64,000 bases of DNA from Oscillospiraceae bacterium (GTDB taxonomy: Bacteria; Bacillota; Clostridia; Oscillospirales; UBA929). Below the pieces are notes generated by a model. That model searched no databases, was not told the origin of the DNA, and saw only the letters and a program-made list of their open reading frames with translations. Of this stretch, positions 59,337 to 62,683 are shown one piece after another (positions within the stretch are counted from its first letter, which is position 1; each line of letters opens with the position of its first letter). Position numbers and translations under genes: made by a program. Where the stretch lies: assembly GCA_009780275.1 (NCBI GenBank), contig WRAI01000001.1, positions 1 to 64,000 on the forward strand, read 5' to 3'.

Positions 59337-59584
59337 AAAAAAAGTCCTCGCCTCTATGCTCAAGAGACGAAGACATAAAAGCTCCGCGGTACCACTCTTG
59401 TTGACGTCTAAACAACGTGTAAAACACGCTATTGCAACGCCCACTCAAAATGTTTGCACTCAGGGGTGAGATACGTAACCACGCCATACGGTCTTGCAGC
59501 AACCGACCGCTCTCTGAAACGAAATGTCTTCGTCATGGCGCAACGGTTCGCTTATTCCCGTCACAGTGCAGAATTATTTAGTTG
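59337..59584 (-). promoter_or_regulatory. Leucine T-box leader
   Basis: The minus strand carries the T-box sequence AGAGTGGTACCGCGG (59398-59384) ahead of a strong terminator hairpin, GTCTTCGTCTCT / AGAGGCGAGGAC (59374-59344), followed by seven T. The Stem I part has AGAGAG, GGTTGCTG and a candidate specifier CTC (Leu) near 59470-59468, in ATCTCA. Uncharged tRNA-Leu would favour readthrough into leuA. Confidence 0.92.
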
Positions 59585-59706: not shown

Positions 59707-59736
59707 TTGACAGGCATGACTTGAGTGTGTTATACT
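59707..59736 (+). promoter_or_regulatory. Promoter of the aromatic amino acid operon
   Basis: TTGACA (59707-59712) and TATACT (59731-59736) with an 18-base spacer, about 34 bases before the leader-peptide ATG. Confidence 0.75.
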
Positions 59737-59769
59737 ACAAACAATCTCAAAAGTAGAGAGGGCATCGTT

Positions 59770-59823
59770 ATGGAGCGTAGCAACGCATTTAATTTTGGTT
59801 ACTATTACTTTTTTACGAAGTAA
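59770..59823 (+). CDS. Phe/Tyr-rich leader peptide
   Basis: Encodes MERSNAFNFGYYYFFTK, 17 residues with four Phe and three Tyr including a YYYFF run. A purine-rich site (GAGAGGG) lies seven bases before the ATG. The codons TAC TAT TAC TTT TTT (59800-59814) lie in the 5' arm and loop of a 12-bp hairpin, exactly where a stalled ribosome would open it. Its gene product is presumably irrelevant; translation is the signal. It is the sensor of the attenuator in front of the DAHP synthase gene. Confidence 0.8.
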   Translation: MERSNAFNFGYYYFFTK

Positions 59824-59902
59824 TGGTAATTTGTGTTGCGTGAACCAAGGCGGATAATCGCGAGCAGCCACACAGATTACACATCTGGGTGGCGATTTTT
59901 TT
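59799..59902 (+). promoter_or_regulatory. Ribosome-mediated transcription attenuator of the aro operon
   Basis: Three structures can be read. Pause 1:2: TTACTATTACTT (59799-59810) with AAGTAATGGTAA (59818-59829), 12 pairs with one G-U. Antiterminator 2:3: GTAATTTGTGTTGC (59826-59839) with GCCACACAGATTAC (59867-59880), 12 Watson-Crick pairs, one G-U, one mismatch. Terminator 3:4: GCCACACAGA (59867-59876) with TCTGGGTGGC (59884-59893), one mismatch, followed by T7. 2:3 excludes both others. Stalling at Tyr/Phe codons should favour readthrough into the DAHP synthase gene. Confidence 0.8.
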
Positions 59903-60057: not shown

Positions 60058-61065
60058 ATGGTAGTCGTACTTAAACCCGAGGCGTCATCGGCAAAAATTG
60101 AACATCTCAAACGCTGGTTGGAAGCCAAACAGCTTATTGTGCGCGAATTTCAAGGGCAGGAGCAATGTGTATTGGGACTTATCGGCGATACTGCGCTGGT
60201 TGACATGGACATGCTGCGCAGTCTCGACATTGTCGACTCGGTTGCCGAAATGCGTGAGCCGTTCAAGGCGGCAAGTCGTGCGATGCATCCTGGTGACTCT
60301 GTTCTTTCGACAATGGGCGGCGTAAAAATCGGTGGCGGACATTTTGCGCTGATTGCCGGGCCGTGCTCGGTTGAATCGCGCGAACAGGTCACCGAAGTTG
60401 CCGAACGTGTTAAAAAGTCGGGGGCAAACTTCTTTCGTGGCGGCGCGTTCAAGCCGCGCACATCGCCGTATGACTTTCAAGGACTGGGCGCCGAAGGCTT
60501 GGACCTGCTGATGGAAGTCAAGAAAATCACGGGACTGCCTATTGTTACGGAGTTGATGGATATTCGCAGCCTGTCGTTGTTCGGGCAGGTCGATGTCATT
60601 CAAGTCGGCGCGCGCAATACGCAAAATTATGATCTGCTGCGCGAATTGGGCACAGTTCCCAATAGCGTCATTTTGCTTAAACGTGGACTGGCCGGCACGA
60701 TTAAAGAACTACTGATGAGTGCCGAGTATATCATGGCGAGCGGTAACGAGAATGTCATTCTCTGCGAACGCGGCATTCGGACATATGAAACGGGCTACGC
60801 GCGCAATACGCTGGATTTATCCGCTGTGCCGATTTTAAAAAAGCTGACGCATTTGCCGATTGTTGTTGACCCCAGCCATGCGACCGGTCGTGCCGACCTC
60901 GTGCCATCAATGGCCGCAGCGGCTGTTGCGGCGGGTGCCGACGGCATTATGATTGAAGTGCACAACGACCCACCCAACGCACTGTGTGACGGCGCGCAAT
61001 CGCTGACGCCCGAGCAGTTTGACGAGGCGGCTAAGACAATTTTTAAGATTAGGGCGGCGATGTAG
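60058..61065 (+). CDS. aroF: 3-deoxy-7-phosphoheptulonate (DAHP) synthase, class I-beta
   Basis: First step of the shikimate pathway: condenses PEP and erythrose-4-phosphate. 335 residues: N-terminal ferredoxin-like regulatory domain (about 1-70) and a (beta/alpha)8 barrel with AGPCSVES (metal Cys), FRGGAFKPRTSPYDFQG, GARNTQNYDLL, LKRGLAGTIKE, VVDPSHATGR and EVHNDPPNALCDGAQ. The added N-terminal domain is that of Tyr- or prephenate-inhibited enzymes. AAAGGAG before the ATG at 60058. First structural gene behind the attenuator. Confidence 0.95.
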   Translation: MVVVLKPEASSAKIEHLKRWLEAKQLIVREFQGQEQCVLGLIGDTALVDMDMLRSLDIVDSVAEMREPFKAASRAMHPGDSVLSTMGGVKIGGGHFALIAGPCSVESREQVTEVAERVKKSGANFFRGGAFKPRTSPYDFQGLGAEGLDLLMEVKKITGLPIVTELMDIRSLSLFGQVDVIQVGARNTQNYDLLRELGTVPNSVILLKRGLAGTIKELLMSAEYIMASGNENVILCERGIRTYETGYARNTLDLSAVPILKKLTHLPIVVDPSHATGRADLVPSMAAAAVAAGADGIMIEVHNDPPNALCDGAQSLTPEQFDEAAKTIFKIRAAM

Positions 61066-61834: not shown

Positions 61835-62683
61835 ATGACCAAACCACAAACCATCGGTATAGTCGGCTTAGGCTTAATCGGCGGGTCGCTTGCTAAGGCG
61901 TATCAGCGCGTGGACGGCGTGCGTGTGCTTGGCGCAGACAGAGATACGTCTATTATGGAGTTTGCCCGTTTGGCGCAGGCGGTTGATGAAGAATTGACAG
62001 ATGAGAATATAGCGCAATGTGAATTGCTTTTGCTGGCGACGTATCCGCAAGGCGTGATTGACTGGGTGACGGCGAAGGCGGCGAAAATCGCCAAAGACGC
62101 GGTCGTGATTGACTGTACGGGCACGAAAAAGCGGATTTGCGACGCGCTTTTCCCTGTGGCAGCGGCGCATGGCTTTGTCTTTGTCGGGGGTCACCCGATG
62201 GCGGGCACGCATCAGTCGGGGTTCAAACACAGCCGCGAAGATTTATTTGACGATGCGCCGATGGTTATTGTGCCGCCTACATTTGGGGATATTCAGCTCT
62301 TTGAACGCGTCAACCGGCTGCTCAAACCGATCGGGTTTGGGCGCGTATCGATGACAACGGCAGAGGAGCATGATGAGATCATCGCTTTTACCTCGCAGAT
62401 GCCGCATATTATCTCCAACGCCTATATCAAGAGCCGCACCGCCGCGCGGCACAAGGGATATTCGGCGGGTTCGTATCGCGATTTGTCGCGTGTAGCGTGG
62501 CTGAATGCCGATATGTGGAGCGAATTGTTTGTTGAAAATCGCGATGCGCTGCTGGATGAAATGGACGAGTTTATTTACAGCTTGAAGCAGTATCGTGACG
62601 CGCTGAAAGCGAGCGACAGCAAGCGTTTGTGGGCGTTGCTGGAAGAGGGTAGACGGCGTAAGAAAGAGGTAGATGGACCATGA
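61835..62683 (+). CDS. tyrA: Prephenate dehydrogenase
   Basis: 282 residues. IGIVGLGLIGGSLAKAY is the NAD-binding loop; GGHPMAGTHQSGF holds the catalytic His (H-P-M-A-G); FTSQMPHIISNAY and AGSYRDLSRVA complete the family pattern. No chorismate-mutase or ACT domain is fused. It converts prephenate to 4-hydroxyphenylpyruvate for tyrosine. AAGGAGG before the ATG. It overlaps aroB by ATGA. Confidence 0.93.
   Translation: MTKPQTIGIVGLGLIGGSLAKAYQRVDGVRVLGADRDTSIMEFARLAQAVDEELTDENIAQCELLLLATYPQGVIDWVTAKAAKIAKDAVVIDCTGTKKRICDALFPVAAAHGFVFVGGHPMAGTHQSGFKHSREDLFDDAPMVIVPPTFGDIQLFERVNRLLKPIGFGRVSMTTAEEHDEIIAFTSQMPHIISNAYIKSRTAARHKGYSAGSYRDLSRVAWLNADMWSELFVENRDALLDEMDEFIYSLKQYRDALKASDSKRLWALLEEGRRRKKEVDGP

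Follow-up and report, generated by a model that had tools for sequence, protein, structure and literature searches.

The analysis was carried out computationally on a fragmented assembly (GCA_009780275.1, Oscillospiraceae bacterium) and its relatives. The window, that is, the whole stretch of 64,000 nucleotides analyzed from contig WRAI01000001.1, contains a gene for DAHP synthase (60058–61065, + strand, ATG at 60058), in which the PF00793 domain and the ferredoxin-like domain PF18152 were identified. DAHP synthase catalyzes the first step of aromatic amino acid synthesis. The gene is followed by a CPBP-type protease gene, the prephenate dehydrogenase gene tyrA (61835–62683, + strand, assigned by ORF and Pfam), and two genes that, judging from their sequence, we take to be aroB and aroA. 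The spacing and the common pathway indicate that tyrA likely forms one operon with aroB and aroA. The upstream neighbor, leuA, is divergent and preceded by a T-box leader (59360–59573, − strand) scoring 53 bits, below the Rfam cut-off of 93; no other T-box was found in the genome.

The region 59707–59902, upstream of the DAHP synthase gene, had been predicted to carry a Tyr/Phe leader-peptide attenuator, and direct reading of the sequence confirmed the presence of every element listed, all on the + strand. The leader promoter (59707–59736) consists of TTGACA (59707–59712), an 18-nt spacer, and TATACT (59731–59736) with an extended −10 TG, and it agreed with the consensus at 11 of 12 positions in the promoter scan. 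A Shine-Dalgarno sequence, AGAGAGGG (59755–59762), precedes the leader ORF MERSNAFNFGYYYFFTK of 17 codons (59770–59823), which starts with ATG at 59770 and includes the stop codon TAA at 59821–59823. Its translation is predicted, and both start and stop lie before the operon. The control codons of the leader peptide, YYYFF, form a cluster specifying Tyr and Phe, the end products of the pathway under control.

Fold and covariation identified region 1 (59797–59811) as the 5′ arm of hairpin 1:2; it contains the Tyr codons UAC UAU UAC together with the first Phe bases, and pairs over 15 bp with the 3′ arm (59817–59831), inside which the leader stop codon is located. Region 2, the antiterminator strand GTAATTTGTGT (59826–59836), was delimited by pairing tests and the alignment, and its form conserved across the family is GATTTGTGNTGC. 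Region 3 (59870–59880), supported by pairing and capture tests, can pair either with region 2 as antiterminator or with region 4 as terminator, so that both pairings share one strand; stem 2:3 comprises 10 contiguous bp between 59826–59835 (GTAATTTGTG) and 59871–59880 (CACAGATTAC). The 3:4 hairpin (59867–59893), an intrinsic terminator with one A·G mismatch, was recovered by fold, terminator scan, and covariation, and is followed by a T7 tract (59896–59902). A generic terminator scan missed the 3:4 hairpin, for which its mismatch and the two-base gap ahead of the T tract probably account, but the fold, the dedicated scan, and the homologs do show it. No further promoter-like site was found by the promoter scan on the + strand between the terminator and the DAHP synthase gene. 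The leader region folded 3.4 standard deviations better than shuffled sequences. Against shuffled spacers, the 2:3 pairing of the window reached a z score of −4.2, with 0 of 200 shuffles as good, and the 1:2 pairing one of −3.6. The three mutually exclusive stems (1:2, 2:3, and 3:4) of the original prediction, with Tyr codons in the 5′ arm of the first and the T7 terminator before the first structural gene, were thereby recovered in both sequence and fold. In addition, where the ORF spans region 2, the RNA of this region (59829–59840 in the window, and in the homologs) encodes “-LCC” close to the C-terminal end of the leader, and the stretch (SDLCCK and the like) is code and antiterminator at once.

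DAHP synthase homologs were drawn from 57 relatives, 394 genomes of the order, and named genome contigs, and the 450 bases upstream of each gene were searched for an intrinsic terminator preceded by a short ORF in which a stretch of 10 residues contains at least five Phe/Tyr. This combination was present in 92 of 134 non-redundant upstream regions (69%), and about nine more regions contained convincing leaders with no terminator detected; homologous leaders thus retain both the short ORF and its Tyr/Phe codons, as had been anticipated. A Shine-Dalgarno-like site preceded 89 of 101 family leaders, compared with 20% of random ATGs, and the densest 10 residues of the 101 leaders consisted of 39% Phe and 32% Tyr (71% together); examples are MKNFMFAYEYFYFYFYFTLKNK.. 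(L006), MALNCTKKYYYYFSFTSFFGK.. (L010), and MKFLTFAAEYFYFYFSFFFTK.. (L137). The same counts bear on the explanation that a chance short ORF lies before the ordinary terminator of an upstream transcript. In about 10% of shuffles, AT-rich stretches do yield ORFs rich in Phe/Tyr; however, ORF and terminator occurred together in only 0.15% of shuffled controls (3 of 2010) and 0.23% of other stretches taken from these loci (5 of 2143), and since leuA upstream is divergent, no upstream transcript needs a terminator here. We regard this explanation, against which the covariation of the stems described below also speaks, as practically negligible.

When 133 DAHP synthases were arranged in a tree, the leader proved clustered and widely kept, and the enzyme of the window grouped with those of L112 and L032, whose leaders resembled that of the window most in the alignment. 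No leader was seen in 29 of the 134 upstream regions, and no T-box at gathering score was found before the 20 leaderless genes searched, for which a T-box was therefore rejected as the regulator; thus, the regulation is not universal. A divergent subgroup of leaders (L085, L100, L093, L102, L105, and L108) shares an “FFS.GFFCC”-like end, has several members in more distant Clostridia, and is not captured by our models. It may represent a second family.

Conservation of the stems was analyzed in two alignments, one of the 15 nearest members, not fitted to the structure of the model, and one of 58 matches collected by the covariance model. In the 15-member alignment, stems 1:2 and 3:4 were kept in 93.9% of cells, and at most 1 of 500 shuffles was as high by any measure. 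In the 58-member alignment, which was fitted to the structure of the model and therefore leans towards it, 94.7% of cells of the two stems were paired, double compensatory changes occurred in 19 of 21 pairs, double-changed cells numbered 184 compared with 52 in shuffles, and the covariation score was 0.51 versus at most 0.11 when slid. One codon position of region 1 was U-A in 29 members and A-U, the type of the window, in 15. This exchange corresponds to Phe UUU versus Tyr UAU and is accompanied by the complementary change across the stem; UAU was found at this position in about 15 members and UUU in most others. The family illustrates how a run of codons and the RNA stem that it helps to form evolve together.

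These exchanges also weigh on two other explanations of the locus. The ORF could encode a small hydrophobic protein with a function of its own, and the terminator that follows could be unrelated to it; the leaders are indeed often 17–35 codons long with good Shine-Dalgarno sites. However, beyond the Tyr/Phe runs no peptide sequence is conserved over most of the length, the codons pair with the arm containing the stop codon and undergo compensatory changes, and in most loci only a short distance separates the terminator from the biosynthetic gene, which makes such a protein very improbable. Alternatively, the conserved RNA could sense a signal itself, as a metabolite-binding riboswitch or a protein-bound leader, and not through translation of a peptide. 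The strong sequence conservation of region 2 is in line with this possibility, as is the trpB motif, which has the same hairpin-plus-terminator layout and was classed among riboswitch candidates by those who discovered it (PMC11109978). Nevertheless, the frame, start codon, Shine-Dalgarno sequence, and Tyr/Phe codons are kept while the leader sequences otherwise differ, exchanges between Tyr and Phe codons are matched by compensatory changes across the stem, only two hairpins and no elaborate aptamer-like fold are formed, and Trp codons appear in the trpB-linked members. We consider direct sensing by the RNA improbable.

Antiterminator stem 2:3 behaved differently from the other two, and the expected covariation of the stems was thus strong in 1:2 and 3:4, whereas 2:3 was conserved with few double changes. 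In the 15-member alignment, this stem was kept in 83% of cells versus 21–65% when slid, and its covariation was barely above that of shuffles; few double changes would be expected where region 3 has to serve as the partner of region 4 as well. In a register-free test, each member's own 2:3 partners paired better than swapped ones (Wilcoxon p = 2e-9, with kinship among members not removed). The anatomy of the leader, its conservation, the compensatory changes in the stems, and the recurrence at aromatic amino acid genes are direct observations.

With a probability of roughly 0.9, we interpret the element of the window as a putative ribosome-mediated transcription attenuator of the trp/phe type, in which the leader peptide would sense charged tRNA-Tyr and probably tRNA-Phe as well. 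Under this interpretation, the T-box before divergent leuA and the leader of the window make up a back-to-back pair of tRNA-charging attenuators of different kinds. When Tyr- and Phe-tRNA are plentiful, the ribosome would reach the stop codon at 59821 and cover region 2, leaving region 3 free for region 4, and transcription would end at the T tract, short of the DAHP synthase gene. Under scarcity of Tyr (or Phe), a ribosome stalled on codons 11–15 in region 1 would keep hairpin 1:2 from forming; region 2 could then capture the emerging region 3, allowing readthrough into the aromatic pathway genes. If the leader were left untranslated, 1:2 would form and the terminator would win. Stalling, readthrough, and dependence on amino acids are what we infer from this arrangement, and translation of a Tyr/Phe-rich peptide probably decides whether transcription stops or continues in this gut-type Clostridium relative.

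Of the competing structures originally proposed, equilibrium folding favored the terminator in every ribosome state of the window, with values of 0.99 falling to 0.74 (ribosome at Tyr11), and the stalled states gave no clean switch. Because the terminator wins at equilibrium in nearly every state, the switch must be kinetic. A capture test was therefore applied to RNA ending before region 4, the moment of decision, and the probability that region 3 is captured upstream was calculated. In the window, this probability was 0.89 with the ribosome on codons 7–16, 0.45 at the stop codon, and 0.37 without a ribosome, which agrees with the trp/phe logic under kinetic control. Over the whole family, the predicted capture was 0.78 on stalling versus 0.45 at the stop codon, compared with 0.64 versus 0.40 in shuffled sequences (p = 4e-4), so that the test separates stall from stop only moderately.

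Within the same genome, the covariance model found two sites, the leader of the window and a copy on contig 16 (L169:1980-2180), which precedes a small membrane-protein-like ORF and then tyrS. Its leader peptide is MTRNNVFGTGNYYCKE. In the alignment, the promoter, Shine-Dalgarno sequence, and regions 2 and 3 of the copy hardly differ from their counterparts in the DAHP synthase leader; the tyrS copy is therefore best read as a duplicate that included the promoter. Its control site contains Tyr-Tyr and no Phe, which argues for Tyr as the signal at tyrS. Among 29 relatives, tyrS was preceded by a T-box or by nothing recognizable and in no case (0/29) by the attenuator element, while one other clostridial genome has it (L245); the idea that a tyrS attenuator is general in the order was thus rejected. 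In part of the order a T-box precedes tyrS, with the motif in 7 of 30 loci and scores above the Rfam cut-off in 6 of 20. The tyrS gene is a natural example of a site at which one sensor of tRNA charging stands where relatives have another. The genome also carries a second TyrS-like gene, 45% identical, at G000:C6:12343-13551.

The existence of a clostridial family, suggested by the original prediction, was borne out by covariance-model matches at the level of the order (67 of 394 genomes), the class (38 of 391), and the phylum (8 of 398), counts that include the genome studied and some doubtful weakest matches; the tyrS copy and the wider targets go beyond what had been proposed. The E-values of the home-made covariance models are rough, and doubtful MAG labels (Planctomycetaceae, Kiritimatiellae) were kept out of the range claims. 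Matches below about 40 bits with no leader (most of L174-L187, L248, L250, L256-L258, and L260) were judged chance terminators, and L171, located before a LeuA-like gene and lacking an aromatic leader, was likewise judged a chance match; neither group was counted. In other genomes the element mostly precedes DAHP synthase, and further targets in other Clostridia are pheA (L230), tyrA (L251), and tyrS (L245). It also precedes the gene of an ABC transporter binding protein (L170:883-2082; ABC_sub_bind, PF04392) with the leader MKFAASANLYFGYSYFYFYFAK.., which predicts an aromatic amino acid substrate for this transporter; in this way the family may assign Tyr/Phe specificity to uncharacterized genes. 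Before trpB, the element was found in L172 and L175 with Trp-containing leaders, and in L173, assigned by its score. Two of the trpB-linked leaders place Trp among Tyr/Phe (AKYWYFYF, AKYWRYFSF), which suggests a switch of specificity. On balance, it seems probable that one homologous, unnamed family of clostridial leader-peptide RNAs runs an aromatic regulon (DAHP synthase, pheA, tyrA, tyrS, trpB, and the transporter), with codons and specificity drifting among Tyr, Phe, and Trp, and that the element can be duplicated onto new genes, such as tyrS of this genome, where some relatives hold a T-box.

Among known systems, the Rfam families Phe_leader and Trp_leader represent the pheA and trp operon attenuators of Proteobacteria, which resemble the window in the aromatic codons of region 1, the three mutually exclusive stems, and the terminator before the operon; they differ in that the host of the window is clostridial and the regulated genes include DAHP synthase and tyrS. 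Neither model reached its gathering score in the window or in 20 loci. At gathering score, Rfam gave no match in the window apart from a tRNA, and none in these 20 loci, most of which hold members; no Rfam family matches the site of the leader. The T-box riboswitch also senses tRNA charging and controls a terminator, but has no leader peptide, and its conserved element is absent from the leader of the window; on the + strand before DAHP synthase, the RF00230 model had no match, the only one being the leuA T-box on the − strand.

The trpB motif (SRC-39-1/RF04312) is likewise found in Firmicutes, combines a hairpin with a terminator, and targets trpB and amino acid ABC transporters (PMC11109978), which are rare targets in the clostridial family. 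It was rejected as the parent, as the window scored 18.4 bits against a cut-off of 59 and 0 of 147 genomes of the order passed. The uORFC-13-1 motif before aroF in Acholeplasma has a short uORF with Phe codons and a terminator, with the DAHP synthase gene next (PMC8632094). Its published description differs from that of the clostridial family: the motif has 24 representatives, from Acholeplasma and environmental sequences only, and at least one Phe with no Tyr run reported (PMC8632094). Leader-peptide attenuators have also been described in Firmicutes for hisS/hisZ in Bacillus (PMC2965389), for the his operon (PMC9413887), and for ilv-leu of Staphylococcus aureus, with support from mutants and promoter-activity data (PMC5794164). 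The his and ilv-leu systems share the kind of mechanism and the phylum with the clostridial element but differ in amino acids and genes, and no common sequence was shown. The analogy with the trp/phe operons drawn in the original prediction holds for the anatomy, while its description as unexpected in a Firmicute was overstated, since his, ilv-leu, and Acholeplasma aroF attenuators are known there. No report of an aromatic attenuator family in Clostridia was found in the open-access literature searched, most subscription journals lying outside the search. Leader-peptide attenuation as such is thus known in Firmicutes, whereas the clostridial aromatic family is apparently undescribed, and it would add a peptide-sensing attenuator family to gut Clostridia, in which such control has mostly been credited to T-boxes.
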